From contig JAIPEG010000004.1 of NCBI GenBank assembly GCA_021737405.1, positions 186,001 to 250,000 of the forward strand: a stretch of DNA of 64,000 nucleotides. Direction: 5' to 3'. Source of the DNA: Bacteriovoracaceae bacterium. Its GTDB lineage: Bacteria > Bdellovibrionota > Bacteriovoracia > Bacteriovoracales > Bacteriovoracaceae. The notes beneath the pieces are model-generated. The model made no database searches. It was given only the letters and a program-made list of their open reading frames with translations, and was not told where the DNA came from. The position numbers and the translations under genes were made by a program. Below are positions 35,833 through 51,771 of this stretch, in pieces (the first letter of the stretch is position 1; each line of letters begins with the position of its first letter).

Positions 35833-36231
35833 TCATTTCTCAAGTGGGGCTATTTTTTGAACTTTGGACACGATTTGTCCATCATTTTGGATTTCAACAA
35901 TATAATCATTCGCTCCTTCCCGAATCACCTGAAGGATATGATCGGGGTCATTCTCAGGATTAACGAAAAGAATAGGCAGTTTCTTTTTACTCTCATTAAC
36001 TTCTCTCATAAGAAGGAGTATTTCCCTGCCCGGCATGTCTTCAGACTCGCCAAGAATCACAATCATTTTATAAAATTTTTTGGAATTATTACTTTTCTCT
36101 AAAAGGCTAATGGCGTGAAAGCCTGACGAAGTAAGCTCAGTTGTATACCCCATCATTCTTAGACGAGAACTAATATTATTTTTCCTTGTAGGGTTTTGGT
36201 CAATAATGAGGACTATATTTTCTTTTTTCAT
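35833..36231 (-). CDS. Degenerate receiver-domain protein
   Basis: 132 residues, a stand-alone CheY-like fold: VLIIDQNPTRKNNISSRL (strand 1 with one Asp where two acids are usual), MGYTTELTSSGFHAISLLEK, KMIVILGESEDMPGREILLL, KLPILFVNPEND, VIREGANDYIVEIQND. Aligning the MPG turn, the phospho-accepting Asp is replaced (Ser/Glu), the strand-4 Thr is replaced by Val/Asn, and the Lys of strand 5 is Glu. It is therefore probably not phosphorylated by a kinase and acts as a pseudo-receiver or partner-binding module. No kinase is near. Confidence 0.75.
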   Translation of the reverse strand: MKKENIVLIIDQNPTRKNNISSRLRMMGYTTELTSSGFHAISLLEKSNNSKKFYKMIVILGESEDMPGREILLLMREVNESKKKLPILFVNPENDPDHILQVIREGANDYIVEIQNDGQIVSKVQKIAPLEK

Positions 36232-37501: not shown

Positions 37502-40500
37502 ATGTTTAGAAAGAAACTAAAAGATGATATTATACAGGATCCTATTAGGGATGAGGTTTTTAGCCCTGAACGGTTAGAGCTTTATGCATCATTCCTCGCT
37601 TCAGAACTAGCGATTGCCGATAAAAAAAGTAAGGGAGTATCTCTTCTCCCAAGAGTAAAAGAAAATGAAGAATCAATAAAGCAATCATACCTGAGGTTAT
37701 CGCAAGCAGTGACCAAGGATATTCAACTATCTCCTGCTGGTGAGTGGATAATTGATAATTATCATATCGTTGAAGATCAAATTAGAGAAATAAAAGAAGA
37801 TTTACCTGAAAAGTATTATCTTGAGCTTCCCAAGGTGAAAAGTGGAAGTTTGGCTGGATTTCCTCGGGTTTATGCCATAGCTCTCGCTTTAGTTGCTCAC
37901 TCAGATAGTCATATAAATGTAGAGACTGTTAAGAACTTTGTTCACGCTTATCAGAAAGTTACGCCTCTCCTTATTGGTGAGATTTGGGCCATTCCAATTG
38001 CTTTAAGAATAACACTTATTGAAAATTTAGGACGTTTATCCAATCAAGTCATTCTCTCTCAGGATATCAAAGAAAAAATAGAGGCGATATCAAATGATAT
38101 CTTTGAAAATTTTGGATTTACTGAAGAGAGCACAAAAAAACTTACTGATGAGCTTTCAACGATACTAGGGAAATCAAAAATTTGTGATTGTTCCTCGATT
38201 TCTCAATTGTCCCATGAACTTCATACGAGGAGAAAAGAATTTCTTCCTGTTTGTGAGTTCATTGATCAATATCTTGCAAAAAGAAATCTTAATATTGATG
38301 AAGTTGTCCATTCCGAGCATAAATTTCAAGCTTCTGCCCAAACAAGTGTCAGTAATGCCATCTTGAGTATGAAGCTACTTTCAAGTACGGATTGGCATAA
38401 CTTTTTTGAAAGCTTATCTCTTGTAGAGCCTATTCTAGAACAAGATCCTGTTGGTGCTTATCATACAATGGATTTTGCTAGTCGCGATCAGTACCGAAAT
38501 GCAATTGAGCGTATCCACAAGAAAACAGGGTATGGAGAAATTAACATAGCTAAAGAGGCGATGGCCTTGGCGCTTGATTCCTATCGTAATAATGACGAAG
38601 ATACCGCCAAACACCACGTTGGGTATTATCTCGTGAAAGAGGGAATAAGGGAGATTGAAAAAAAGATTAAGTACAAACTAACTATCAAAGAATGGATTAA
38701 AAGGTTTATCTTAGACAATCCTGCTATGTTTTATCTGGGGCTACTGATTATATCAATGTGTTTGATAATAGCCCCCACCATAATATACGTTCATGGGATT
38801 AATTCTAGTCCGCTTTGGCCGATATTGATTGTTTTTCTAACCATTATTCCTGCCAGTGATAGTTGCCTCAATTTACTAAACTTATTTCTCACTTATTTAA
38901 TAGGGCCATCTCTCCTCCCCAAAATAGATTTACAAAAGGGAATACCAGACAATGCTAAGACTTTTGTCGTGATTCCAACTATTGTCGAGTCTGTTGATGG
39001 CCTATCTCGATTATTCGAAGATTTGGAGATTCGGTTTTTAGGAAACCAAGATAAGAATCTATTTTTTGCTATATTAAGTGATTATTCAGATGCTGATGCA
39101 AAAAATATTTCAACAGACGAAGAGGTTCTTCGTTCCTTAAGGAAAGGGATTGAAAATCTCAATGATAAATATGCAAATGGGCAAAGTAAATTTTATCTCT
39201 TTCACAGAGAAAGACTGTGGAACCCAAAAGAAAACAAATGGATGGGTTGGGAGAGAAAGCGTGGTAAAATTCACGAATTTAATCGCTTTCTAAAGCAAAA
39301 TGGTGAAGCTAGCTTTGTCGCTCATCCGGTCCATACTCCATTTTTTTCGGATATTGAGTACGTTATTACTCTAGACACAGATACGAAGCTTCCTCGAAAT
39401 TCTGCTAGAAAATTATTGGGGACGATTCTCCACCCACTAAATAAACCTCAATTTAACGAAGACCTAGGGATAGTCACTAAAGGTTATAGTATTTTACAAC
39501 CTCGAATTAGTATTAACCCCGAGAGTTCCGATAGATCTATTTTTTCAAAAATATTTTCAGGTTACACTGGAATCGATCCTTATACTACGGCCGTATCAGA
39601 TTCATACCAAGACCTCTTTCTTGAAGGGATTTATACAGGAAAAGGGCTTTATGTCGTAAAATCCTTTGAGAGATCCCTACAAAATAGATGTCCGGAAAAT
39701 AAACTTTTAAGTCATGATCTCTTTGAGGGACTTTTTGCAAGAGCAGCCCTCGTTTCTGACATAGAGTTTTTGGATGATTATCCTTTCCACTATGAGTCTT
39801 TCGCAAAGAGGAGCCATCGTTGGATAAGAGGAGATTGGCAAATCATAAATTGGATTTTTTCTAAAGTTCCTGATTCCGGAAATAATTTGATAACTAATCC
39901 ACTTAGCTTAATTTCGAGATGGAAGATTTTTGACAATCTGAGACGTAGTTTGGTTGCGCCTACAACGTTACTGTGGCTAATCTTAAGTTGGATAATTCTT
40001 CCTGGTGCCCCTTTACTTTGGACCTTCATTATTCTTACAGTTTTGGCCTTACCATTATATGCTCATACTGCGAGCAGCTTCTTTAAACACCCAAGGAATT
40101 TACCTTTTACTGAACATCTTTTGGGTATTCTTGAAGATATAAAAATAAATCTCATTCAACTAGGCTTAACAATTATTACCTTGCCCTATCAGTCCTATCT
40201 TCATTTGGACGCCATCTTCAGAAGTTTGTATCGCGTCTTTATATCAAAAAGAAATTTATTAGAGTGGAAGGCCGCTGCTAAAGTCGAGATGGACATATTA
40301 AAAGGATCATCATTTTTTCTTAGTGTCGCTAAATACTCTTGGTTTTTTTCGCTTATCATTCTCTTTTTTGTATTAAAATTTAATCCTTACTCTATATATG
40401 TGGCCGGTATTTTCCTATTTGCATGGTTCTTCTCACCTTTTATTTTAAGCCATATTAGCAAAGAAATACCTAAGAGTACCTTTAAAATAAATGTTGAAGA

Positions 40501-43500
40501 CAAAGATCTCGTAAGGGAAATTGCTATACGGACTTGGAACTTTTTTGAAAACTTCGTCATTGAACTTGAAAATTGGCTTCCTCCTGATAATTTTCAACAA
40601 GATCCTGAAGAAGTCGTCGCCCATCGAACATCTCCAACTAATATGGGACTTTATTTATTATCTTGTTGTAGTGCTTATCATTTTGGATATATCGGACCAC
40701 TTGCTACAATTAATCGTTTAAGACAAACTTTAGATGTGATGCAAGGACTGCCTAGATGTTTCGGTCATTTTTATAATTGGTATGATACACGCAGTTTAAG
40801 ACCACTAGAGCCTGAGTATGTATCGACGGTAGATAGTGGGAATTTGGCAGGGCATCTTCTCGCTATAAAGCAAGCCTGTCTAGAGATTAGAGAAGATCCC
40901 GTTCGATCTTCATTCTTATTATCAGGCTTGAATGATATTACGAGGATAATTCAAAGCGAAATAAAAAAGCTCTCTAATGTAATTATTGAATCTACACCGA
41001 ATTACTCATTGAAAAATTCAGCAAATAAAATTCAACAAATGATTAATAGCTTAAACGATAAAGATATTCTCCAGTGTATGGGGATTTTTGATGAGCTCCT
41101 TTCCGATATAAATATATTTTTGAATGAACTTAGTAAAATATCGCGAGAGCATAGCGATAGCCATTATAAATCTCTCTTCACATGGAGTAATAAGCTTTCG
41201 GTAAGAATAGAAGAGATAATGATGGAAATACACTATTTCTCTATAGAATCTAACGCGACTCACTTTAAAGAGAGATGTGTTGAGATTAATGTGATTTGTA
41301 ACGATCTTTTTTCCAAAATGGACTTTACCTTTCTCTACGACAAAGAAAAAGCGCTTTTTAGTATTGGTCATAATGTAAAAGACGGAAGAAACGATGGTAG
41401 TTATTATGATCTTTTGGCCTCAGAGGCGAGACTCGCTAGCTTCATAAGTATTGCTAAAGGAGACGTTCCTGAAAAGCATTGGTTTCATCTAGGTAGACAG
41501 ATGACATCACTTTTCCGTCAACGAACTTTGATATCTTGGTCGGCGTCAATGTTTGAATACCTCATGCCATTGTTGGTAATGAAAAACTACTTTGGGACTC
41601 TTTTAAGCGAAACAAATAGGGCAGTAGTAAAACAACAGATTAGCTATGCAAATCTTAAAAGGCGACCATGGGGAGTATCGGAGTCTGGGTTTAACGCAAG
41701 AGATTTGAATAAGAATTACCTTTACGGTCCATTTGGAGTACCAGGCCTCGGGCTTAAGCGTGGGTTAAGTGACGATTTTGTTGTTTCGCCATATTCAACT
41801 GCTCTGGCCTCACTGGTGCTTCCTCAGGAAGCAATAGAGAATTTAAAATTACTCATTTCTCAGAATTTTTTAACTGATTTTGGATTTTACGAAGCTATAG
41901 ATTATACGGAAGGTCGTATTCCTCCTAAGCAAAACTATGCTGTTATTCAAAATTTTATGGCCCATCATCAAGGAATGATTTTGGTTGCTTTTGATAACTT
42001 TCTTCATGATAGCTCGATTGTAAATTATTTTCATAAGAACTCGCTAGTAAAGTCGTCAGAACTTCTACTGCAAGAGAGAGTGCCGAAGAAAGTTTATGTA
42101 CTTCACCCACGCTCTGAAGAAATCTCCACTATTAGAGAACGAGACTTTAACTCCCTTCCTAGTTTGCAACATATTCCTAATGTAAATACGGATATTAATC
42201 AAACACGGGTTTTATCAAATGGAAGCTATACTTCGATGTTGACTGCCACAGGATCTGGTTTTTCAAAAAGTGATAATAGGTTTCTTTTTAAATGGGATGA
42301 AGACTCTACGCTAGAGAAAGATGGTAATTTTGTTTTCGTTAAAAATAAACTGGACGGTTCACTGTTTTCAACAACTTTCCAACCCTTGTGTAAAGATTCC
42401 GAAAATTTCAAGACTATCTTTTCTGAACATAAAGTTGAGTATTTTTTCGAAAACAATAGTCTTGCTATTCATTCCGAAATCATTATTTCTGCAGAAGATG
42501 ATGTGGAAATGAAGAAGATGAGTTTTTCAAATTTAACAAACAAGCAACAATCCTTTGATGTTATTAGTTATGCAGAGCCCACTCTTGCGACGTTAGATGA
42601 AGCACGTGCTCACCCTGTCTTTAATAAAATTTTCATAGAAACTGAGTTTGTTGCTGAAAAAACGGCGCTTTTGGCAAAGAGAAGAAGACGGTCAATCGAA
42701 GATGCAGAATATTATGGTGTTCACCAAATCATTCTTGATAAAAAGAGATGTCATAATCTTCAGTATGAAACAAATCGAGAAAATTTTTTAGGGCGTAAAA
42801 ATCAATTAGTTAACGCCGACTGTTTAATGGAAAAAAAGGAACTTTCCAATACTGTTGGCACCATACTGGATCCTATCTTTTCATTCAAAACCACTGTTTC
42901 TTTAGCTCCTAGGGAAACAGCTCGTATTATGTTCATTTCTGGAATGGCTTCATCGCGCAATGAAGCTCTTAGTTTGATCGATAGGTATCATGATTTAAAC
43001 TCTTTCAATAGAGAGGATCAAATGTCTTGGACTCAATGTCAGATTGAGTTAAAGCATCTTAATGTTGATGTAGACGAGGCAAATACTTTTCAAAAACTTA
43101 CGAGCGCTCTTTTATACCCATGCTTAGAGATTAAATCCTCGACGTCAATTGATGTTATTTCCAAAAAGGCCCAGGATAGTCTTTGGGCATACGGGATAAG
43201 TGGAGATTTGCCGATTCTTTTAGTGTCAATAAAGTCCCAGCAGTACATGCCTTTTATTAAAGATATTCTACAATTTCATGAATACCTCAGAATGAAAAAT
43301 ATCCAATTTGACCTTGTCTTTTTTTATGATGAATTAAATTCTTATCGAATGGAGTTACACGAAGAGCTTCATCACCAAATCAGGATGTCTGGTGCACAAG
43401 TTTATCTGAACAAGCCGGGGGGAATTTTTCTGTTTAAAAAGGATTTAATACCAGAGGAGGACAAGGCATTGCTAGAGTCCGTTAGTAGGGTCTATTTTGA

Positions 43501-46024
43501 GGCGCATCATGGAAGTCTTAAAAAGCAAGTCGAGCACATATTTAAAACGAGTATTACAAAGGAAACTGATTTAAACATGCCGGTTGCTTCTCAGTGGACA
43601 ACATCTCCTGTGAAAAAGCCCGAATTACTTTTTTATAATGGTTTTGGAGGTTTCTTAAATAACGGTGAGGAGTATCAAATTTATCTAGATAAAAGTGAAG
43701 TTACTCCGACACCGTGGATTAATGTCATTGCTAATTCAAAAGATTTTGGTTTTATGGTTTCTGAGTCAGGAAGTGTTCACACTTGGTCACAAAATAGTAG
43801 AGAAAATCGTATTACGCCATGGAGTAACGATCCCGTTATTGATCCTTCAGGTGAAATTCTTTACCTTCTCGATGAAGACACAAGAGAGTTTTGGACTCCT
43901 ACTCCTGGAGCCGCTCGTGATGATGACCCTTACCTTATTAGGCATGGACAGGGTTATACAATTTTTGAACATAATAGTTTTGGAATTTCACAAAAAATAA
44001 CCATGTACGTATCTCTAGAAGATGAAGTCAAATTCGTACGTGTGAAATTGAAAAACCTTAGTGGTGTGAATAGGAAATTGGCGGTAGTTTATTATTTAGA
44101 ATTAGTTTTGGGTTTTCATCGTGCCAAGACTTTAGGTCATATTGTTACTGAAAAAGGATTAATCCCAAATAGTTTTTTGGCAAAAAATCATTTTGATCCT
44201 AATTTTGGAGATAGAATTACGTTTGTTTCTTCTAATAAGGATGTCTCAGAGTTTACTTGTAAAAGATCCTCTTTTATAGGGCGCCATGGCTCTCTAGAAA
44301 GCCCCTTAGCTTTAATTGAAAGAAAGTTTGATGGAAAAATAGGAGTAGGCTTGGACCCTTGTTTTGCCTTAAAGATAAACCTCGAACTTAAAGTCGAGGA
44401 AGAAGATGAAATTCTTTTCCTAGTGGGCCAAGTAAATAGTGACGATAAATTAGAGCAGCTGATTAAAAAAAATCTGGAAATTCAAACTGCTGATAAAGTC
44501 TTTCGAAGTGTTCAAGAGTTTTGGGATAAGAGCGTATCTTCCATAAAAATTAAAACTCCCTTTCCACACTTTGATATACTGATAAATCGATGGTTACTCT
44601 ATCAAACTCTCTCTTGCCGTATTTGGGCCCGCACTGCTTTTTATCAATCAGGAGGAGCCTATGGTTTCCGAGATCAACTCCAGGATGTAACTTCGCTTTT
44701 ACATGCAAGCCCAGAAATCGCAAGAGAGCACATACTTAAAGCTGCTGGTAAACAATTTCTGGAGGGTGATGTTCTCCATTGGTGGCATGCTCCAATTAAT
44801 AAAGGTGTCAGAACACATTTCTCCGATGATCTATTATGGCTTCCCTTTGTCACCCATCACTATATCAATTCTACTGGCGACGAACAAATACTGGATCAAG
44901 TCATACCTTTTATAGAGGGACCTTTAATTGCTGAAGGTGAAGACGACCTATACTTAGAAGCTGTTAAAAGTAGTAAAGAAGCGAGTTTGTATGAACATTG
45001 TCTGTTGGCACTTGATTATAGTTTAAAACTTGGTAAGCACGATCTCCCCCTAATGGGATCAGGAGATTGGAATGATGGAATGAACAAAGTTGGACACAAG
45101 GGGCAAGGGGAGAGCGTTTGGTTGGGTATGTTCTTAGGAACATGTCTGAGAAACTTTTCAGAGATTTGTAAGAAGAGAGGAGATGATGAAAAGTTCAAGA
45201 TTTATCAGGATCATTTAAAAAAAATAGAAACGTCTTTGGAAAACGCTGGCTGGGATGGGTCATGGTATCGAAGAGCGTATTTTGATGACGGAACCCCGCT
45301 TGGGTCAAATACAAATGAAGAATGCCAAATCGACTCTATTGCTCAATCGTGGAGTGTTCTCTCTTCATTAGGTTCTGATAGTCATAGATACAATGCTCTT
45401 GAATCTGCAAAACAGCGACTTGTTGATGAGGAAGAAGATATGGTTTATTTATTTCAGCCCCCATTTGATAAAACCCCCCTCAATCCAGGATATATAAAAG
45501 GTTATCCTCCTGGAATTAGAGAAAATGGCGGTCAATATACTCACGCAGCGATTTGGCTAGCAATGGCATTTGCTCAATTAAAGGATCATAAGATGTCCTT
45601 TAAAATTATGGATATGCTTAATCCCATAAAGCTTTCTCTGGATCTCGTAAAATGCGACCGTTATAAGGGAGAGCCTTATGTTGTTTCGGCCGATATTTAT
45701 TCCTCTGCGATGCAAAAGGGAAAGGCCGGTTGGACTTGGTATACCGGTTCCTCCGGTTGGTATTATAGAGCTTTTATCGAATCCATTCTGGGAATCAGAA
45801 GAAATGGCAATGCTCTCGTGTTGGAGCCGGTAGATGATGAGAACTTTTTTGAGTATGAGGTGCAATACCGCTTTGGTTCAACTTATTACAATATATTGTT
45901 CCAAAAAACACAGGAGAAGAATTGCCTTTATGTGGATGGTCTCAATCAGGGAGAACATTTAATCTTTCCGTTGGTTGATGATCAAAGAGATCATTCCGTT
46001 ATTGTTAAGGTTTTGATCAATTAG
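37502..46024 (+). CDS. ndvB: Cyclic beta-1,2-glucan synthase (NdvB/ChvB-type)
   Basis: 2840 residues, the normal size for this giant inner-membrane enzyme that starts, extends, trims and cyclises beta-1,2-glucan from UDP-glucose. Order: N-terminal domain with LSPAGEWIIDNYHIVEDQIR; membrane segments near 410-470; GT84 glycosyltransferase (FVVIPTIVESVDGLSRLFED near 490, TLDTDTKLPRN near 623, KRSHRWIRGDWQI near 770); membrane segments near 820-850 and 945-985; a glycoamylase-like region (about 1040-1500, AHRTSPTNMGLYLLS, NFMAHHQGMILVAF). Then a C-terminal GH94 phosphorylase-like part (from about 2040) with the hallmark GSGDWNDGMNKVGHKGQGES near 2518. All blocks are intact. It is monocistronic. 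Confidence 0.93.
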   Translation: MFRKKLKDDIIQDPIRDEVFSPERLELYASFLASELAIADKKSKGVSLLPRVKENEESIKQSYLRLSQAVTKDIQLSPAGEWIIDNYHIVEDQIREIKEDLPEKYYLELPKVKSGSLAGFPRVYAIALALVAHSDSHINVETVKNFVHAYQKVTPLLIGEIWAIPIALRITLIENLGRLSNQVILSQDIKEKIEAISNDIFENFGFTEESTKKLTDELSTILGKSKICDCSSISQLSHELHTRRKEFLPVCEFIDQYLAKRNLNIDEVVHSEHKFQASAQTSVSNAILSMKLLSSTDWHNFFESLSLVEPILEQDPVGAYHTMDFASRDQYRNAIERIHKKTGYGEINIAKEAMALALDSYRNNDEDTAKHHVGYYLVKEGIREIEKKIKYKLTIKEWIKRFILDNPAMFYLGLLIISMCLIIAPTIIYVHGINSSPLWPILIVFLTIIPASDSCLNLLNLFLTYLIGPSLLPKIDLQKGIPDNAKTFVVIPTIVESVDGLSRLFEDLEIRFLGNQDKNLFFAILSDYSDADAKNISTDEEVLRSLRKGIENLNDKYANGQSKFYLFHRERLWNPKENKWMGWERKRGKIHEFNRFLKQNGEASFVAHPVHTPFFSDIEYVITLDTDTKLPRNSARKLLGTILHPLNKPQFNEDLGIVTKGYSILQPRISINPESSDRSIFSKIFSGYTGIDPYTTAVSDSYQDLFLEGIYTGKGLYVVKSFERSLQNRCPENKLLSHDLFEGLFARAALVSDIEFLDDYPFHYESFAKRSHRWIRGDWQIINWIFSKVPDSGNNLITNPLSLISRWKIFDNLRRSLVAPTTLLWLILSWIILPGAPLLWTFIILTVLALPLYAHTASSFFKHPRNLPFTEHLLGILEDIKINLIQLGLTIITLPYQSYLHLDAIFRSLYRVFISKRNLLEWKAAAKVEMDILKGSSFFLSVAKYSWFFSLIILFFVLKFNPYSIYVAGIFLFAWFFSPFILSHISKEIPKSTFKINVEDKDLVREIAIRTWNFFENFVIELENWLPPDNFQQDPEEVVAHRTSPTNMGLYLLSCCSAYHFGYIGPLATINRLRQTLDVMQGLPRCFGHFYNWYDTRSLRPLEPEYVSTVDSGNLAGHLLAIKQACLEIREDPVRSSFLLSGLNDITRIIQSEIKKLSNVIIESTPNYSLKNSANKIQQMINSLNDKDILQCMGIFDELLSDINIFLNELSKISREHSDSHYKSLFTWSNKLSVRIEEIMMEIHYFSIESNATHFKERCVEINVICNDLFSKMDFTFLYDKEKALFSIGHNVKDGRNDGSYYDLLASEARLASFISIAKGDVPEKHWFHLGRQMTSLFRQRTLISWSASMFEYLMPLLVMKNYFGTLLSETNRAVVKQQISYANLKRRPWGVSESGFNARDLNKNYLYGPFGVPGLGLKRGLSDDFVVSPYSTALASLVLPQEAIENLKLLISQNFLTDFGFYEAIDYTEGRIPPKQNYAVIQNFMAHHQGMILVAFDNFLHDSSIVNYFHKNSLVKSSELLLQERVPKKVYVLHPRSEEISTIRERDFNSLPSLQHIPNVNTDINQTRVLSNGSYTSMLTATGSGFSKSDNRFLFKWDEDSTLEKDGNFVFVKNKLDGSLFSTTFQPLCKDSENFKTIFSEHKVEYFFENNSLAIHSEIIISAEDDVEMKKMSFSNLTNKQQSFDVISYAEPTLATLDEARAHPVFNKIFIETEFVAEKTALLAKRRRRSIEDAEYYGVHQIILDKKRCHNLQYETNRENFLGRKNQLVNADCLMEKKELSNTVGTILDPIFSFKTTVSLAPRETARIMFISGMASSRNEALSLIDRYHDLNSFNREDQMSWTQCQIELKHLNVDVDEANTFQKLTSALLYPCLEIKSSTSIDVISKKAQDSLWAYGISGDLPILLVSIKSQQYMPFIKDILQFHEYLRMKNIQFDLVFFYDELNSYRMELHEELHHQIRMSGAQVYLNKPGGIFLFKKDLIPEEDKALLESVSRVYFEAHHGSLKKQVEHIFKTSITKETDLNMPVASQWTTSPVKKPELLFYNGFGGFLNNGEEYQIYLDKSEVTPTPWINVIANSKDFGFMVSESGSVHTWSQNSRENRITPWSNDPVIDPSGEILYLLDEDTREFWTPTPGAARDDDPYLIRHGQGYTIFEHNSFGISQKITMYVSLEDEVKFVRVKLKNLSGVNRKLAVVYYLELVLGFHRAKTLGHIVTEKGLIPNSFLAKNHFDPNFGDRITFVSSNKDVSEFTCKRSSFIGRHGSLESPLALIERKFDGKIGVGLDPCFALKINLELKVEEEDEILFLVGQVNSDDKLEQLIKKNLEIQTADKVFRSVQEFWDKSVSSIKIKTPFPHFDILINRWLLYQTLSCRIWARTAFYQSGGAYGFRDQLQDVTSLLHASPEIAREHILKAAGKQFLEGDVLHWWHAPINKGVRTHFSDDLLWLPFVTHHYINSTGDEQILDQVIPFIEGPLIAEGEDDLYLEAVKSSKEASLYEHCLLALDYSLKLGKHDLPLMGSGDWNDGMNKVGHKGQGESVWLGMFLGTCLRNFSEICKKRGDDEKFKIYQDHLKKIETSLENAGWDGSWYRRAYFDDGTPLGSNTNEECQIDSIAQSWSVLSSLGSDSHRYNALESAKQRLVDEEEDMVYLFQPPFDKTPLNPGYIKGYPPGIRENGGQYTHAAIWLAMAFAQLKDHKMSFKIMDMLNPIKLSLDLVKCDRYKGEPYVVSADIYSSAMQKGKAGWTWYTGSSGWYYRAFIESILGIRRNGNALVLEPVDDENFFEYEVQYRFGSTYYNILFQKTQEKNCLYVDGLNQGEHLIFPLVDDQRDHSVIVKVLIN

Positions 46025-46107
46025 AAATGTATAGGTTTTGCCGTTAAACGTGAGGAATGTGAAATATTTGTGCTCCATTGTAAGGTTGCTTAAAAAAAAA
46101 CAAACGA

Positions 46108-46161
46108 TAAATGGAGCGGGCAACCCGATTCGAACGGGCGACCTTCTGCATGGCAAGCAGA
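46108..46161. repeat. attL-like repeat: partial tRNA-Gly 3' part
   Basis: 54 bp identical to 50490-50543. It stops being tRNA-like at 46162, so no functional tRNA is formed here; only the part from the anticodon stem to CCA is present. Marks the left end of the integrated element. Between ndvB (46024) and this site I see nothing else. Confidence 0.9.
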
Positions 46162-46287
46162 TTCAACTCTTTTTAGATCATTCAATAACTCGCAGAAATC
46201 ATTGAGGAAACTCAATGATATTAATCGTTTAACTGAACATTCAAGTTCGTAAATTTTCGGAAGAGTTCGATGGTTTTCGGATACTGA

Positions 46288-46309
46288 TGGCACACTTTTG
46301 GCACACATT
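46288..46309. repeat. Two 11-bp tandem repeats, possible integrase arm sites (left)
   Basis: TGGCACACTTT followed directly by TGGCACACATT, about 130 bp inside attL. The same arrangement and orientation recur at 50407-50428 beside attR, which suggests integrase arm-binding sites. Confidence 0.55.
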
Positions 46310-46344
46310 TTTGTGGTCGGTATTTTCTCTTTTCTCAAAAACCA

Positions 46345-46373
46345 TTGTGTAGACAAATTTGTCTACATATGCT
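46345..46373 (+). promoter_or_regulatory. Toxin-antitoxin promoter with 20-bp palindromic operator
   Basis: TTGTGT (46345-46350), 17-bp spacer, TATGCT (46368-46373). The spacer is almost entirely a perfect palindrome, TGTAGACAAA plus its reverse complement (46348-46367). Such an operator fits autorepression by the HTH antitoxin encoded 330 bp downstream. Confidence 0.7.
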
Positions 46374-46393
46374 AATGTTTGAAGAAGGACTTT

Positions 46394-46702
46394 ATGGAAG
46401 AAATAAGAAGAAGTTACGACTTAAGCCCACCGATTCTCATAAATGATAGGAAGATTGTTAAAGTTGTTATTGATCCGCATGTAGATAAGCATTCAGATCA
46501 TATTAACGACGAGCTGATTTTAGATTTAGTAAGGCTGCTGGATGGAAGAAATTACAGTTCTGTTAAGGAAAGTGGTAACTTTGAATATTTTGTTTCACAG
46601 ATAAGGGCAAAAAATCGCAATTACAGACTTGTTTGGCTACTTGAGAGTGAAGAGGTCTATATCGGTGTGATTACAGCATTTAAAGACAGAGGAGTGAAGT
46701 AA
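46394..46702 (+). CDS. Candidate toxin of a type II toxin-antitoxin pair
   Basis: 102 residues from the ATG at 46394 (AAGGA upstream); a TTG at 46379 would add 5. Basic, small and single-domain: KIVKVVIDPHVDKHSDHIND, ELILDLVRLLDG, then FEYFVSQIRAKNRNYRLVWL and EVYIGVITAFKDRG. The closing strands, N-Y-R-L-V-W-L-L and Y-I-G-V-I-T-A-F, look like RelE/HigB or DUF4258-like folds. The order toxin-then-HTH-antitoxin with 1 bp between the genes, under a palindromic operator, is the HigBA layout. Target unknown; toxicity not shown by sequence. Confidence 0.6.
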   Translation: MEEIRRSYDLSPPILINDRKIVKVVIDPHVDKHSDHINDELILDLVRLLDGRNYSSVKESGNFEYFVSQIRAKNRNYRLVWLLESEEVYIGVITAFKDRGVK

Positions 46703-46703
46703 A

Positions 46704-47012
46704 ATGGCCTTTCCAAATGCGAATGAAATTGAAAGTATCTTAAACGAACTTAAGGACGCAGAGCCAACTCTCGTTATTGACTACAAAGAAGCTAGTTACT
46801 CTGATGTTTTAAAATATAAGCTGTGCCAAGAGTTTGTGAAGCTTCTTAAAGAGGAAAAAATATCACAGGCCGAACTCAGCAGAAGACTAGGTGTGGATAA
46901 AGCGGTCGTTAATAAGATCATATTACATCGTATAGAGCATTTTACGATTGACCGTCTTGTCGACCTGTATTCGTCTTTAAGGCCTTTAAGCATTAAGTTG
47001 GAGACTTCTTAA
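46704..47012 (+). CDS. XRE-type HTH antitoxin (HigA-like)
   Basis: 102 residues. The N-terminal half (NEIESILNELKDAEPTLVID) may bind the toxin. The C-terminal half is a lambda-repressor-like HTH: FVKLLKEEKISQAELSRRLG, VDKAVVNKIILHRIEHFTID, RLVDLYSSLRPLSIKLE. Begins 1 bp after the toxin gene and probably represses their shared promoter by binding the palindrome at 46348-46367. Could also regulate other element genes. Confidence 0.75.
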   Translation: MAFPNANEIESILNELKDAEPTLVIDYKEASYSDVLKYKLCQEFVKLLKEEKISQAELSRRLGVDKAVVNKIILHRIEHFTIDRLVDLYSSLRPLSIKLETS

Positions 47013-47015
47013 ATA

Positions 47016-47573
47016 ATGACTACCTCAACTAGCGATCTCAAATGCACAAAACTGAAAATTTTAGACTTCTTACCAGGGCATTTTGAGAGAGATATTTGGA
47101 CAGCAAAAATCCTTGAGAATGAAGCAATTTTTAGATGCACGGATAATAACCTTCACAATGAAGGCCTTTTAAAAGATGAGCCACGTGAACATGTACCTTT
47201 ACTCATTGATAAGGTCATAGAAGTGCCTTTAATGTTATTTAGTGGAGAAATAAAAAAGTTCCATCCTGATGATGATCTACGTAAGCAGCTAGCTGAACTA
47301 AACAGCTTTTCTTATGAGAAGATAAGTGGGGAAGTGGATATGTATTCAGCCAATAGCAAGTGGATTTTTATTGGTAAATTTGTGAAAGAATTTAAACTAG
47401 AAGATGATTATTTCATAGAGATTCATTGTAAAAATATTACTTTTTACTTGAGTCCAGATCAAGATCGAGAGCTAAGCATTTATAAAGAGGGTGACATGGT
47501 TCAAGGTAGTGGCTTTCCATATTTAAACCTCGAATCTTATGTAGAAAATACAAAATCGCTAAGTTATTTCTAG
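47016..47573 (+). CDS. Element cargo protein, unknown function
   Basis: 185 residues, starting 3 bp after the antitoxin gene, so it may be co-transcribed with the pair. No signal peptide, no membrane segment. Mixed alpha/beta look: LKILDFLPGHFERDIWTAKI, then DNNLHNEGLLKDEPREHVPL, SGEVDMYSANSKWIFIGKFV and ITFYLSPDQDRELSIYKEGD. No motif that I know. Could be a third TA component, an anti-phage protein or an unrelated passenger. The following 110 bp are AT-rich and carry no gene. Confidence 0.6.
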   Translation: MTTSTSDLKCTKLKILDFLPGHFERDIWTAKILENEAIFRCTDNNLHNEGLLKDEPREHVPLLIDKVIEVPLMLFSGEIKKFHPDDDLRKQLAELNSFSYEKISGEVDMYSANSKWIFIGKFVKEFKLEDDYFIEIHCKNITFYLSPDQDRELSIYKEGDMVQGSGFPYLNLESYVENTKSLSYF

Positions 47574-47683
47574 AGTGGGACTTACGGAAACATAATTTGA
47601 GCATTTTCGCTCTAATTACTTAAGTCTATAGTTTTACTCCACAAATCTAAAAAAAAGTGTGAGAGTATTGAGAAATTTGACGT

Positions 47684-48355
47684 TTGATTTTGAACAAAGG
47701 TGTAGATTTGGGAAAAAGTTGTAGGAGTAAAGAAGATATTCTTGCCTGGAGTAAAAAGAATCAATATGTACACTATAAACCTCAACAAAAAATATCAGAG
47801 ATCACTTCCCTTTTCGACCCTATTAAAGGAAATGGGGCAGTCACCACCGAACTAGGTTCACCGCTAAAAAAAGAGGATGCTGAAAGCCTACGTCAAGAAA
47901 TGAAGAATGAAGGTATTCATCAAATATTTCGTGCTGGGATGGACGACTTTTTAAAATGTTCTTTTGGAAACCTAAATCTTCTTGAAAATATTAATATTTA
48001 CCTGAATAAAGTTAGCGACTTGTTTTCTCAGATTGAAGGAATTGAAATGAGTTCGGGACACTGGGGGATTAGGACTGAAGACAGTAGAAAAATTCTTGAA
48101 GAAGATGGGCACAAGCATGGGGAAAATACATACGCGTCAGTCACTATTTCATTAATCGGCCCTGGGACTTGGTTTTTTAATAAAGATAAAGAGAAACAAA
48201 TCTCACTTCCTTATGAAACTGTATTCATAACAGATGGTGCAAGGGCAATAAGGATCGCCAATGACCTTAATTTTGCAAATGTTCATGGTACACCAGATTG
48301 GCCACATGAAAGATTAATCTTTTTTTGTGGGCCAGAACCTAAGCTAAAATACTAA
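47684..48355 (+). CDS. Element cargo protein with an oxygenase-like C-terminal half
   Basis: 223 residues from a TTG (a second in-frame TTG lies at 47708). The N-terminal half is charged and helical. The C-terminal half, D-G-H-K-H-G, then SVTISLIGPGTWFFNKDKEK and HGTPDWPHERLIFFCGPEP, resembles the strand pattern and spaced His/Asp/His of 2-oxoglutarate/Fe oxygenase-like folds of the DUF1826 kind. This is a weak, by-eye match. Position inside the element, apart from the TA operon, suggests an independently expressed passenger. Confidence 0.55.
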   Translation: MILNKGVDLGKSCRSKEDILAWSKKNQYVHYKPQQKISEITSLFDPIKGNGAVTTELGSPLKKEDAESLRQEMKNEGIHQIFRAGMDDFLKCSFGNLNLLENINIYLNKVSDLFSQIEGIEMSSGHWGIRTEDSRKILEEDGHKHGENTYASVTISLIGPGTWFFNKDKEKQISLPYETVFITDGARAIRIANDLNFANVHGTPDWPHERLIFFCGPEPKLKY

Positions 48356-48506
48356 TTTTTAGAATCCTTACCCGCTGAAAAGGCTGGGAGCTACCATGCT
48401 TTAAAAGCCCAACTCGTTAGAACAATCCTTTTGAATAAATCACTTGTTGCTCTTGCTCAATAATAAGAGATATATTGGGCATTAAAGAATAGTGATCTTC
48501 CCTTCG

Positions 48507-48868
48507 TTTCACGAAGCCACCCTCGTGAAATAACCCTCTCGTAACTAATTAAAAAGTCATTCTCAATCCGTTTCACGTAACTTTCGCTTGAAAAAAAGGT
48601 ACTCAATAAGATTCTTTCTTGGTTTCTTCTTTCTCATATGAAGGGAGCGGATTAGCGTGAGAATCGAGTTGAGAAAAGGGTGTCGTTGACCCGTCGTAAC
48701 TACGTCGCTGCCATGTCGCTTTGTAGGTGAGTTTCAAATTCGGCCCGCCAACTCTTTGTTATCAAAGAGATGCTCACCGCTCCGAAAGTGACCACCCCCT
48801 CACAACATGTTTTAGAGGAGGTGGTCACTTTCTACGCTAACAGCATAGAGAAATTAAAGGGGCGGGCC
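48507..48868. other. Structured non-coding region with nested inverted repeats
   Basis: In the 614-bp gene-free gap 48356-48969. Elements: TTTCACGA/TCGTGAAA (48507-48514 and 48523-48530); GGTGAG/CTCACC (48726-48731 and 48773-48778); CTCTTTG/CAAAGAG (48752-48758 and 48763-48769); an 18-bp stem GAAAGTGACCACCCCCTC with 48815-48832 (one mismatch, 13-nt loop); and GGCCCGCC/GGCGGGCC (48742-48749 and 48861-48868) that encloses the previous two. The GGTGAG and GGCCCGCC pairings cross each other, a pseudoknot-type arrangement. There is no T-tract, so this is not a terminator. It is more GC-rich than its surroundings. Candidate structured RNA or a DNA site for element replication or transfer. Confidence 0.65.
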
Positions 48869-48969
48869 AAAATTAATTATTGAGAAGTTTTAATATTAAA
48901 GAGGAGGAGAGTGGAAATATAGAGAGATGAAGAAGAAGTGATTTAGTTTAAGGATGGATTTAGAAGGTT

Positions 48970-49293
48970 ATGAGGAGATTTAGATTGATGATGGGAAATA
49001 ATGATAGAGGTAATTACGGATTGTCTAGAAAAGGCTACAATGAAGCCGAAGTAGGAGAGGAAACATCTGAACGCTCGCCTACGACGATAGAAAATTTACC
49101 GGATTTAATTGTCCCCGAGCTTGCGGCAAAGTTGTTGAAAAAGTCTGTGAAGACATTTTACGACTGGAAGTATCGGGGAAAGATGAGAAAAGAGAAAATA
49201 CCACCAGAATTATTTGTAAAATTAGGTGGCCGTCTTTATTTACGAAAAGATGTGCTCATTAATTGGGCCTTCCATCAGAGCTCTTCCTCTTAG
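48970..49293 (+). CDS. Excisionase-like HTH protein
   Basis: 107 residues; a start at the ATG at 48988 (MGNN...) is also possible. C-terminal part: LIVPELAAKLLKKSVKTFYD, WKYRGKMRKEKIPPELFVKL, GGRLYLRKDVLINWAFHQ. This is the MerR/excisionase-type winged HTH (HTH_17/AlpA-like) with the usual R-Y-R-G-K and a strand that ends G-G-R-L-Y-L. It directly precedes the integrase (10-bp gap, AGGAGG between them), the normal xis-int order. Likely controls excision. Confidence 0.75.
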   Translation: MRRFRLMMGNNDRGNYGLSRKGYNEAEVGEETSERSPTTIENLPDLIVPELAAKLLKKSVKTFYDWKYRGKMRKEKIPPELFVKLGGRLYLRKDVLINWAFHQSSSS

Positions 49294-49303
49294 GAGGTAG
49301 ACT

Positions 49304-50395
49304 ATGACAATAAAGAAAGTAAAGACGAAAAAGAAAATCTGCTGGGAAGTCACAACGAGACTTCCTGCAGATAAAGCTAAGAGAGTAAGAAGACGCTTTA
49401 ATAAGAAAATTGAAGCGCAAGAGTTTCTAGATTCTCTTAGGTTTCGTAAAAAATCTCTTGGTTCTAAGGGCCATGCCGTCAAAGGCGATGTTGAAGGGAC
49501 CTCTGTAAACCAAGAAATTGACTATTGGCTGGAGAAAAAAGGGCCTTACTTCACACCAGGTTATAGACGTGTCGTGAATCCGGCCCTGACGCGCATTCGT
49601 AAGGCATTAGGGACAGAGAAGATCTCTTCAATGACGCCTGAGCGTTTAACGGATTTTAGGCTTTCTCTCAAAGATGAAGGCTTAAGTCCTGCCACTCAAA
49701 ACCGCTACACAGACATTATCACTCGTGTGCTTAATTTCTCCTTTACCCAAAGAAGGATTGATTACAATCCTTGTCTGGGTTATCAAAAAGTTAAGGAGTC
49801 CACTGACACTATTTCTTTTTGGGATAAGAGTGAAGCTCAAAACTTTCTTGCTTTTGCCAATGAGAAGTATCCCACCGGATCAAGTAAGCGCTGGGTTTAT
49901 GTGGTGTATTTAATGGCCCTAGAAACTGGGATGCGCGCCCGAGAAATTTGGGGAGTCAAAGTTTGTGATCTTCCTCGTGAGGATTTAAAACTCAGAGTCG
50001 TGCGGCAAGCGATTAGAAAAGGCTTTTCGCATACTAAAGGAAAGGACTTTCGCTTCGTGCCTTTTACCAGCTCTCTTAAAGAAGAGTCGCGGCTTTTGTG
50101 TGAGGGGAGTAATCAGTTTGATCGTTGTCTTTTTACCTCTTTGAGGGGAGGGCCGATAGATCATGATAGCTTCTCAAAGCGCGTTTTTAAGCGTGATCTT
50201 GTTGAGTCTAGGCTGCGCGCTATTCGTTTCCATGATTTGCGCCACACGGCCATTACGCTCATGGTTCTGCGTAATATCCCTCTACCTATTATTCAAAAAA
50301 TAGCGGGGCATAAGGATGTGAAGACCACAATGCGCTATGTCCACCTAGTGGGGGCAAGCATTGATAGCGTTGGTTCGGCTTCATCTTTTGCGTAG
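49304..50395 (+). CDS. int: Tyrosine-recombinase integrase
   Basis: 363 residues. The N-terminal arm-binding part is basic (KKVKTKKKICWEVTTRLPAD, KRVRRRFNKKIEAQEFLDSL). A SAM-like core-binding domain follows (TPERLTDFRLSLKDEGLSPA). The catalytic domain has Arg I (ETGMRAREIWGV), the Lys strand, HDLRHTAITLMVLRNIPLPI (box II H-x-x-R-H), GHKDVKTTMRYVHL and the Tyr nucleophile (Y-V-H). All active-site residues are visible. Adjacent to the intact tRNA-Gly, it would recombine the 54-bp repeats. Confidence 0.92.
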   Translation: MTIKKVKTKKKICWEVTTRLPADKAKRVRRRFNKKIEAQEFLDSLRFRKKSLGSKGHAVKGDVEGTSVNQEIDYWLEKKGPYFTPGYRRVVNPALTRIRKALGTEKISSMTPERLTDFRLSLKDEGLSPATQNRYTDIITRVLNFSFTQRRIDYNPCLGYQKVKESTDTISFWDKSEAQNFLAFANEKYPTGSSKRWVYVVYLMALETGMRAREIWGVKVCDLPREDLKLRVVRQAIRKGFSHTKGKDFRFVPFTSSLKEESRLLCEGSNQFDRCLFTSLRGGPIDHDSFSKRVFKRDLVESRLRAIRFHDLRHTAITLMVLRNIPLPIIQKIAGHKDVKTTMRYVHLVGASIDSVGSASSFA

Positions 50396-50406
50396 GAAAA
50401 AGGTAA

Positions 50407-50428
50407 TGGCACATTTTTGGCACACTTT
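50407..50428. repeat. Two 11-bp tandem repeats, possible integrase arm sites (right)
   Basis: TGGCACATTTT then TGGCACACTTT, same orientation and period as at 46288-46309, 12 bp after the integrase stop. Confidence 0.55.
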
Positions 50429-50437
50429 TTTTGAAAA

Positions 50438-50467
50438 CAAAAAAGCCCCTGTCAAAAGGGGCGTTTA
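50438..50467 (+). terminator. Integrase terminator
   Basis: GCCCCT (50445-50450) pairs with AGGGGC (50457-50462), A run before, short T run after. Confidence 0.7.
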
Positions 50468-50489
50468 AGTACCAAGAATTATTGGATTT

Positions 50490-50543
50490 TAAATGGAGCG
50501 GGCAACCCGATTCGAACGGGCGACCTTCTGCATGGCAAGCAGA
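50490..50543. repeat. attR-like repeat within tRNA-Gly
   Basis: 54 bp identical to 46108-46161. Forms the 3' part of the intact tRNA gene, starting at tRNA position 27, plus 4 bp beyond CCA. Confidence 0.9.
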
Positions 50544-50569
50544 CGCTCTACCAACTGAGCTATGCCCGC
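50494..50569 (-). tRNA. tRNA-Gly (anticodon GCC)
   Basis: 76 nt with encoded CCA. Acceptor GCGGGCA/TGCCCGC, D arm GCTC/GAGC, anticodon stem TCTGC/GCAGA with loop TTGCCAT (GCC), T arm with TTCGAAT. Complete despite the integration, because the element supplies the identical 3' half. Confidence 0.95.
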
Positions 50570-50727
50570 ATCAAAGGACCTAAGCCTTTTAAAGCTAGGG
50601 CATAATGCCGTTAGGTTGTGGGCTTGTCAAGAATGAAGTCTTATTAAGATTTACTCCCTCCTTCCTTGTCAAAAAGGGGGCTTAGCGTTATTATGCGCGC
50701 CATAACAACCTAGATAAGGATTGATTG

Positions 50728-51771
50728 GTGTTTAATAGAATGCACTTTCTTGCACTATGCTTTCTTTTTAGTCTGAATTCATTGGCAGGCAGTGCCTGTT
50801 CTCGCTCACCTTTTATGGTGAAGGTTTTAGAGTCTCAATTGCAAAAGAAGTGCAAGGATATCTCTCTCGAGGAGATAGGCCTTGTTAAAAGTTTAGACCT
50901 CAGTGGGCTAGATTTAGAGAAGCTCTTAACTTTAGATTTTCTGGGGTTTACTTCACTTGAGTCCTTAAATATTTCTAATAATAAAATTGAGAATTTTTCG
51001 GATAGTTTTTTGCCACTATTTCCCAATCTTAAAGAGTTTCAGGCAAGGTCTAATGATATTACAGAACTTCCTGAGGGAGGTTTCACTAAAAATAAGAAGC
51101 TTGAGTGGATTGATTTTGGACAAAATAAATTGGTTAATCTAGCGGATGGGACTTTTTCTGAAGCTAGGAACCTAAGGTACCTAGACCTTGGCCAAAACTA
51201 TATAGAAAAAATCTCTAGTCTGCTTTTGGTTAACAACTCAGGTCTTAGGAGTCTTTTCCTTGGGGGGAATAAAATTTCGATTATAGAATATGGAGCCTTT
51301 AAGTCATTGGTTAATTTAAGAAACCTAAGTATTTATTCTAATGATTTAAGATATTTATCCTCTGAGCAGTTTCGCAATTTAGCTAGTTTGGAAGAGTTAT
51401 CTTTAAGCTTAAATCGAATCACTTGGGTTCCTTCTGATACTTTTAGGGCCTGTATTAAATTAAAAAGAGTTTACTTGGGAGGAAATCCTTTAAGGTTTAT
51501 TCCGAGTGGTCTTTTTAATGGACTTACTTCAATTGAAGAAATCTTTCTAAACTACTTGGAGATTACTGATTTAGATAAATCTCTTTTTCACGGGTTACCT
51601 AAATTGGTAAGGCTCTTATTAAATGACAACCAAATTGAAAATCTTCACGAAGACACATTTAAGCCTGGCTTATTCAATGAAAAAGCCTATGTAAATATGA
51701 TGAGAAATCCTTTAGATGATAATTTTAAGGGGCTTATCAGCAGCCAACTCTTAAATCGCGTTGTCTATTAA
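50728..51771 (+). CDS. Secreted leucine-rich-repeat protein
   Basis: 347 residues from a GTG at 50728, 7 bases after AAGGA; a TTG at 50725 and an ATG at 50740 are alternatives. Signal peptide (HFLALCFLFSLNSLAGSACS). About ten LRRs of 23-24 residues follow, e.g. LESLNISNNKIENFSDSFLP, LEWIDFGQNKLVNLADGTF, LRYLDLGQNYIEKISSLLL, LEELSLSLNRITWVPSDTF (L-x-x-L-x-L/F-x-x-N-x-I/L). These are the typical extracellular kind, closed by PGLFNEKAYVNMMRNPLDDN. No membrane anchor at the end. Likely a periplasmic or surface binding protein, plausibly for contact with other cells; the partner is unknown. Confidence 0.85.
   Translation: MFNRMHFLALCFLFSLNSLAGSACSRSPFMVKVLESQLQKKCKDISLEEIGLVKSLDLSGLDLEKLLTLDFLGFTSLESLNISNNKIENFSDSFLPLFPNLKEFQARSNDITELPEGGFTKNKKLEWIDFGQNKLVNLADGTFSEARNLRYLDLGQNYIEKISSLLLVNNSGLRSLFLGGNKISIIEYGAFKSLVNLRNLSIYSNDLRYLSSEQFRNLASLEELSLSLNRITWVPSDTFRACIKLKRVYLGGNPLRFIPSGLFNGLTSIEEIFLNYLEITDLDKSLFHGLPKLVRLLLNDNQIENLHEDTFKPGLFNEKAYVNMMRNPLDDNFKGLISSQLLNRVVY

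Follow-up and report, generated by a model that had tools for sequence, protein, structure and literature searches.

We analyzed a window of 64,000 nucleotides from the genome of a Bacteriovoracaceae bacterium of the phylum Bdellovibrionota (contig C37, positions 186001-250000; genome 3.36 Mb, 84% complete), which contains a 4.4-kb integrative element lodged in a tRNA-Gly gene at window positions 46108-50543. Our results indicate that this is probably an integrative mobilizable element of the origin-only type (iOriT), carrying an origin of transfer (oriT) and using a helper. We favor this reading because a relaxase, the coupling protein TraD, and a type IV secretion system (T4SS) are lacking, while oriT-like DNA is present. 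Searches with Pfam, PHROGs, PADLOC, NCBIfam, and our neighborhood profiles revealed no relaxase, coupling protein, or mating-pair gene in the element. As in iOriT elements and mobilizable genomic islands, it is flanked by attachment (att) repeats, encodes its own integrase and directionality factor, has no transfer genes, and carries a putative oriT homologous to those of conjugative elements. A preliminary description of this DNA had stated that packaging, replication, and transfer genes are absent; this holds for the genes in the four databases, but the description had filed the oriT-like DNA merely as a structured block.

That block (48682-48868, plus strand) is indeed structured. Folding of positions 48600-48900 gave z = -6.3, with none of 100 shuffles equally stable, in agreement with the preliminary description. 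It consists of four 11-bp iterons (48682-48725), reading GTCGTTGACCC, GTCGTAACTAC, GTCGCTGCCAT, and GTCGCTTTGTA, and a conserved branched inverted repeat (48741-48868) with an outer stem, a small hairpin, and a long hairpin (48784-48832). The iterons, whose lag-11 autocorrelation in the window has a shuffle P of 0.0015, would be the relaxase binding site, and the inverted repeat would be the oriT core. A covariance model of the latter, R1, was built from 8 sequences and scores the window at 106 bits, the window being itself one of the 8 training rows.

The same DNA is widespread in the phylum. A blastn search with the window hairpin matched 3 of 58 relatives besides its own genome (G021, G029, and G033). 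In G029, the hairpin is flanked on one side by a gene whose PF13814 similarity narrowly misses the cut-off and on the other by an ORF142-SSB-int group (SSB, single-stranded-DNA-binding protein), and the SSB-(xis-)int order is the same in G033 and G021. Using R1, we obtained matches in 72 of 129 genomes of the family (E ≤ 0.01) and in 100 of 368 genomes of the phylum (E ≤ 0.001), 31 of these outside the family. A background set of 79 unrelated loci fetched with the integrase (873 kb) scored no higher than 14.6 bits. For the context analysis, 138 matches in 72 sequences were reduced to the better strand at each place, giving 73 hits; opposite-strand matches and one weak match (L202:5542-5659, 25.3 bits) were left out, and the total of origins in the family is at least that among the matches listed.

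A predicted relaxase gene of the PF13814/MOBC type lies upstream of the structure in 50 of the 63 copies with at least 900 bp of upstream sequence, and its stop codon falls 31-97 bp before the origin in 50 of 55 relaxase-bearing loci. Across the 73 contexts, the recurring order is VirB4, VirB6, VirB8, TrbI, lipoprotein, TraD, relaxase, origin, ORF122, SSB, (xis,) int. The underlying profiles were seeded from one element, G021:C15, and the names VirB4, VirB6, VirB8, and lipoprotein were assigned by eye; Pfam backs VirB4 (P-loop_TraG), TrbI, TraD/TraG, and SSB in members and gave nothing for VirB6 or VirB8. VirB4, TraD, and relaxase occur together in 29 of the 45 contexts with at least 6.5 kb upstream. 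Ten contexts obtained later, six with and four without a relaxase, stand outside the iteron, covariation, and relaxase-neighbor counts. In three loci from other families of the phylum, a relaxase homologue is again found upstream (3/3), with TraD in between in one (L309). Taken with the iterons and the stems, the block at 48682-48868 looks like an oriT acting in cis and common to conjugative-type elements. Separately, an origin-like match at a contig end (L094, G033:C6:11-140) has a long perfect GC-rich stem and lies near a pilus-type-ATPase-like gene, with no int seen.

Iterons are also a property of the relatives. We reduced 71 stretches upstream of the stems to 55 non-redundant loci, in which the autocorrelation reached z = 13.2 at 11 bp and z = 7.4 at 22 bp, the top lag being 11 or 22 in 24 of the 55. 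Sequence downstream of the stems had no peak of this kind.

The stems covary as DNA would. From 73 rows, 63 remained at 90% identity and 58 after removal of the model's own rows; of the 29 pairs, 8 judged poorly aligned were excluded from the core count. Two-sided Watson-Crick changes were seen in 17 of the 21 core pairs (63 sequences). In the 58 sequences outside the training set, 1171 of 1218 core cells were Watson-Crick (12 G-U, 8 A-C, 20 other, and 7 gaps), against a mean of 768 and a maximum of 797 Watson-Crick cells after shuffling. Over all 29 pairs and 63 sequences (1827 cells), the counts were 1587 Watson-Crick, 46 G-U, 38 A-C, 135 other, and 21 gaps. Near-absent G-U pairing is expected of single-stranded or cruciform DNA, not of RNA, and this is why we read the block, whose stems change in Watson-Crick fashion and hardly ever pair G with U, as DNA. 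A structured RNA or RNA leader is disfavored by the same data, as G-U is about as frequent as A-C (46 versus 38), unlike a small control of 13 tRNA-Gly sequences, which gave 22 G-U and 6 A-C in 273 cells, along with 15 "other" cells that hint at mis-register. An Rfam search of positions 46000-50700 returned, besides the tRNA, just sub-threshold matches to microRNA families, which we took as chance.

The family of the relatives' relaxases points in the same direction. In an alignment of 21 of them, His-92, Asp-126, Glu-143, Glu-145, and Lys-149 are invariant (H..D..ExE..K), which we read as the pattern of a putative PD-(D/E)XK nuclease. The N terminus resembles PadR winged helices through a weak profile match (best PDB match E 0.0013). 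When the relaxases were compared by hhalign with six PF13814-matching proteins, five of which are over the cut-off, the probability was 99.5% (E 2.9e-22). In the section of PMC5357655 cited here, CONJscan places PF13814 in the MobC superfamily. TraX of pAD1, the MOBC prototype, is described in the cited part of PMC12857230 as having an N-terminal winged helix and binding five direct repeats 70-120 bp from nic. These features suggest that the relatives' relaxases are of the PF13814/MOBC type and are predicted to nick at oriT.

Other functions could be proposed for the conserved DNA, namely a replication origin of the excised circle, an accessory site for recombination, or a promoter (for example, one active as single-stranded DNA) for the SSB-xis-int operon. 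Wherever int was found, it lies downstream of the structure, either after ORF122-SSB or directly after xis, and iterons with a hairpin also suit a replication origin. Against this, the structure follows the relaxase gene in the 50 of 63 copies mentioned above and in all three loci outside the family, and iterons set apart from an inverted repeat reproduce the MOBC layout of binding site and nic as given in the cited part of PMC12857230. We therefore regard a function of this kind in place of an oriT as unlikely; the same DNA may serve as both oriT and replication origin.

We next consider the element itself. The complete tRNA-Gly(gcc) gene, the integration target, lies on the minus strand at 50494-50569. 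A displaced copy of its 3' end, tRNA positions 27-76 plus 4 bp, forms the left att repeat (46108-46161), which is 100% identical to the right att repeat within the tRNA gene (50490-50543); the two are direct repeats of 54 bp with a start-to-start spacing of 4382 bp. Inside both ends, a pair of 26-bp repeats (46287-46312 and 50406-50431, 92% identical) are likely the arm sites of the integrase. The tyrosine integrase gene (49304-50395, plus strand) is open and matches PF00589 with 78.9 bits against a cut-off of 27.1. Directly upstream, a xis-like gene (48970-49293, plus strand) encodes a candidate recombination directionality factor; its own profile matches are weak (HTH_17 at 20 bits, below the cut-off of 27; PHROG excisionase family at E 0.0021), but homologues with 40-57% identity adjoin related integrases on their upstream side in 6/6 relatives' loci inspected. 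The integrase is 39-42% identical to those of T4SS-bearing elements, to whose xis-like genes that of the window is also related. The repeat, the integrase, and the excisionase-like gene had all been called in the preliminary description, and these calls were upheld.

The preliminary description had further proposed a compact element that may still be mobile and could be checked at the same locus in relatives. In G002, of the same genus, the tRNA-Gly gene is followed by about 225 bp and then a response-regulator-like gene (named by eye from its sequence), and this is apparently an empty integration site. In the window, the response-regulator-like gene occupies 35842-36231, and a GH94 gene (37502-46024) and the element lie between it and the tRNA. 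In G004, also of the same genus, contig C23 carries the left att repeat, genes 1-3 of the element, and then an integrase fragment, the equivalents of 47585-49804 being missing. The att copy matches G004's own tRNA allele; the join between element and tRNA is not seen because the complete tRNA lies on another contig. Genes 1-3 are 93-96% identical in nucleotide sequence between the window and G004 (dN < dS, nonsynonymous versus synonymous divergence), whereas flank alignments of at least 300 bp are 66-73% identical, a contrast that points to recent horizontal transfer of these genes. The apparent empty site in G002 and the same att repeat in G004 thus support an integrative element that is plausibly still mobile.

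Elements of this kind are not confined to the window. We found nine elements with an origin and int, in eight genomes, that lack relaxase, TraD, and T4SS in the stretch seen (window counted): a first set comprising the window, G100:C30 (with two tandem origins), G021:C75, G142:C107, G144:C23, G072:C7, and G071:C1, to which G071:C25 and G063:C1 were added later. R1 scores the origins of the first seven at 65-106 bits. Among the first set other than the window, flanking repeats are clear in L186 and L192, and none was convincing in L158, L176, L178, or L191. The G144 element measures 5.4 kb, with a 15-bp repeat at a tRNA-Leu 3' end, and that of G071:C1 measures 6.6 kb, with a 24-bp repeat containing one mismatch. 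The cargo in G144 (an ArsR-type regulator, a low-molecular-weight phosphatase-family protein, an SBF-family transporter, and an FMN reductase) can be read as an arsenic-type operon, and that in G142 is a RelE-type toxin with a helix-turn-helix (HTH) partner. ORF122 and int are also retained in three more copies without a relaxase, namely L172 and L305, both with SSB, and L300, which lacks SSB. On a tree of 59 integrases (6 in neither group), the small-element label, carried by seven rows, requires 5 changes, at least 4 of them by well-supported branches; the label shows some clustering (equally few changes in 12 of 500 shuffles), the changes may be gains or losses, and the window row sits on a long branch where its placement is unsure.

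These data bear on whether the element is a dead remnant, that is, an integrative conjugative element whose transfer genes were deleted and which is now immobile, with its oriT left over. Such an origin would account for an int and xis related to those of T4SS-bearing elements, for the clear decay of the G004 copy, in which the integrase is truncated, and for two small elements with weak oriT scores. In the window, however, the integrase, the xis-like gene, the att and arm repeats, the iterons, and the stems all look intact. Small elements account for at least four state changes on the integrase tree, and the first seven retain oriT scores of 65-106 bits; genes 1-3, with dN < dS, have been recently shared between species. 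We consider a dead remnant improbable.

Several observations weigh against the helper-dependent, oriT-only reading or parts of it. The same genome does contain, on contig C34, a conjugative-type element with a relaxase and an origin, which speaks for the reading. Pfam supports the T4SS ATPase, coupling protein, SSB, and integrase of this element; the TrbI-like protein narrowly misses the cut-off, a CagX match is weak, and neither the relaxase nor ORF127 has an informative match. As a candidate helper, however, the C34 element is unsupported by oriT similarity, its oriT being 48% identical to that of the window and ranking 53 of 72, so another element may be the true helper; the closest relaxase-bearing oriT is that of G093 (68%). 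The C34 relaxase alone gives no PF13814 match, and taken singly, 7 of the 21 relaxases match PF13814 at E ≤ 0.01. The covariation count of 1171 in 1218 tilts toward the structure because the alignment was fitted to the model. No relaxase accompanies 13 of the 63 copies, eight of which are in the seven small elements; L172 lacks one in the presence of ORF122, SSB, and int, and in L190, which lies in a T4SS element, none was detected. The remaining three, L185, L198, and L094, show no int either; two of them end at or near a contig end, while L198 has 7.8 kb downstream. Among the small elements, G071:C25 and G063:C1 score low with R1 (44.6 and 39.9 bits), G021:C75 (L176) was seen for just 1.7 kb upstream, and the integrase frame is incomplete in G072:C7 (L191, where the contig end cuts the gene) and in G071:C25 (L301). 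The G004 copy is broken, and we infer excision, helper use, nicking, and transfer from sequence. As for helpers elsewhere, the small elements of G100 and G021 have their best-matching relaxase-bearing oriT in the same genome (3/3 origins), a match that may come partly from lineage effects; this comparison covers G100, G021, and the window, the other four small elements having no same-genome oriT in the set.

The cargo begins with a pair of genes, gene 1 (46394-46702, 102 amino acids) and gene 2 (46704-47012, 102 amino acids), both on the plus strand and preceded by an 18-bp perfect palindrome (46349-46366) that may serve as their operator. Gene 1 is the toxin-like member and has no family match. 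Gene 2, the antitoxin-like member, encodes an HTH protein (HTH_26 at 22.4 bits, cut-off 22; HTH_37 at 26.2 bits, under its cut-off of 27). Homologues of gene 1 occur in 115 of 368 phylum genomes, the own genome counted, and a gene 2 homologue directly follows in 10/10 loci inspected, those of the window and G004 among them. Profile searches including Pfam and NCBIfam gave no known toxin family over the cut-off for gene 1 or four of its homologues. The pair (46394-47012) is thus a widespread module not assigned to any named toxin family; as a conserved bicistron with an HTH partner, it is a putative toxin-antitoxin (TA) pair, as the preliminary description had proposed, and it probably stabilizes the element.

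The two genes that follow remain, as first described, unassigned. Gene 3 (47016-47573, plus strand) encodes 185 amino acids and gene 4 (47684-48355, plus strand) up to 223 from a TTG start; neither has a match at E < 0.01 in Pfam, PHROGs, PADLOC, or NCBIfam, no relative of either was found in viral contigs, and their predicted structures have mean pLDDT values of 31 and 33, respectively. Among 59 genomes searched, own genome counted, gene 3 has a homologue in G004 only, at 92% amino acid identity (dN 0.032, dS 0.089). Gene 4 has no match in plasmids and no convincing homologue among the 368 phylum genomes, where matches arose in 5, one being its own and the other four at E 4.5e-4 to 0.0068; a tentative reading of it as DUF1826-like was dropped, as its own genome gave no match. 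Separately, a 19-bp perfect inverted match joins 46319-46337, upstream of gene 1, with 49184-49202, within the xis-like gene; distant matches in 60 Markov-resampled sequences reached at most 14 bp. The left copy is retained in G004, the small elements L186 and L192 show just 11 and 10 bp, and the match is possibly an antisense or protein site.

Small tRNA islands are often phage satellites or defense islands, gene 4 is an orphan, and gene 2 has a weak PADLOC match (PDC-M69A at E 4.4e-4), but such an identity is very improbable here. PHROGs gave no packaging or capsid match of weight (a minor tail family for gene 4, E 0.46, and a portal family for gene 2, E 0.15, are at chance level), and no relative of genes 3 and 4 was found in viral contigs. 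The PADLOC matches of gene 2, that to PDC-M69A and weaker ones, cover HTH stretches only, and the xis-like gene matched PglZ at E 0.025. Of the earlier suggestion that the element serves anti-phage defense or hitchhiking, the latter stands, on conjugative elements by way of the oriT; the anti-phage part does not, its best PADLOC match being confined to the HTH part of gene 2.

The surroundings of the tRNA gene deserve mention in their own right. On its 5' side, a leucine-rich-repeat gene (50725-51771) is present in 6/6 same-genus genomes and diverges faster than a neighbor (37-66% versus 86-94% identity within the genus). The 8.5-kb GH94 gene, which is cyclic glucan synthase-like, also looks inserted beside the tRNA because its G002 homologue (63%) sits on a different contig. 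In G006, two tandem units of about 190 bp lie beside the tRNA-Gly gene (L066:8161-8620), each of which opens with a short stretch copied from the tRNA-Gly 3' end and includes an inverted repeat. Three partial tRNA-Gly copies at 25.6, 34.4, and 37.2 kb of G025:C27 (L075 and L076), a contig whose complete tRNA-Gly lies at 56.2 kb, point to elements arrayed in tandem in this tRNA.

In the model that we propose, Int and Xis would excise the element as a circle, and the MOBC relaxase of a co-resident conjugative element would bind the iterons and nick the inverted repeat or DNA close to it. One strand would then exit via the helper's coupling protein and T4SS, and in the recipient, the element would circularize and Int would insert it into tRNA-Gly. 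More broadly, and with only slightly more confidence than doubt, we propose that Bdellovibrionota harbor phylum-wide MOBC conjugative elements whose oriT is recognized largely by DNA shape (iterons plus a Watson-Crick-covarying branched inverted repeat), together with origin-only satellites down to 4.4 kb. These would have repeatedly arisen from or recombined with them (at least four state changes) and would form a standing class of hitchhikers with TA, arsenic-type, and orphan cargo. The structure model detects oriT-like DNA throughout the phylum and turns a seemingly inert 4.4-kb island into a testable hitchhiker. In the open-licence literature, as far as we searched it, neither this origin nor any iOriT element from Bdellovibrionota is described.

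Among known systems, the element resembles the mobilizable genomic islands of the MGIVflInd1 type, which, in the part of PMC5704250 cited here, are mobilized by SXT/R391 elements and likewise encode a tyrosine integrase and a directionality factor of their own but no conjugation protein, and have an oriT akin to the oriT of a conjugative element. Those islands are 18-33 kb, have MOBH helpers, and occur in gammaproteobacteria (PMC5704250, same part), whereas the window element, at 4.4 kb at least four times smaller, has a putative MOBC-type origin with 11-bp iterons, resides in Bdellovibrionota, and is mobilizable by prediction. Like the iOriT hitcher class in the cited section of PMC11389934, it integrates and has an oriT without relaxase or mating-pair genes; in comparison with that class, our element is known from its sequence alone and its helper is a presumed one. 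The pAD1 oriT and TraX, as described in the cited part of PMC12857230, share the winged-helix and PD-(D/E)XK relaxase of the MOBC type and a direct-repeat binding site distant from the nic region; pAD1 is an Enterococcus plasmid, and the likeness to it is one of described features. Finally, the streptococcal integrative mobilizable elements with Rel_PF13814/MobC, in the section of PMC5357655 cited above, are matched by the relatives described here in combining a relaxase of the PF13814 family with a coupling protein of the VirD4 type and, unlike the window element, encode their own relaxase and a serine integrase.

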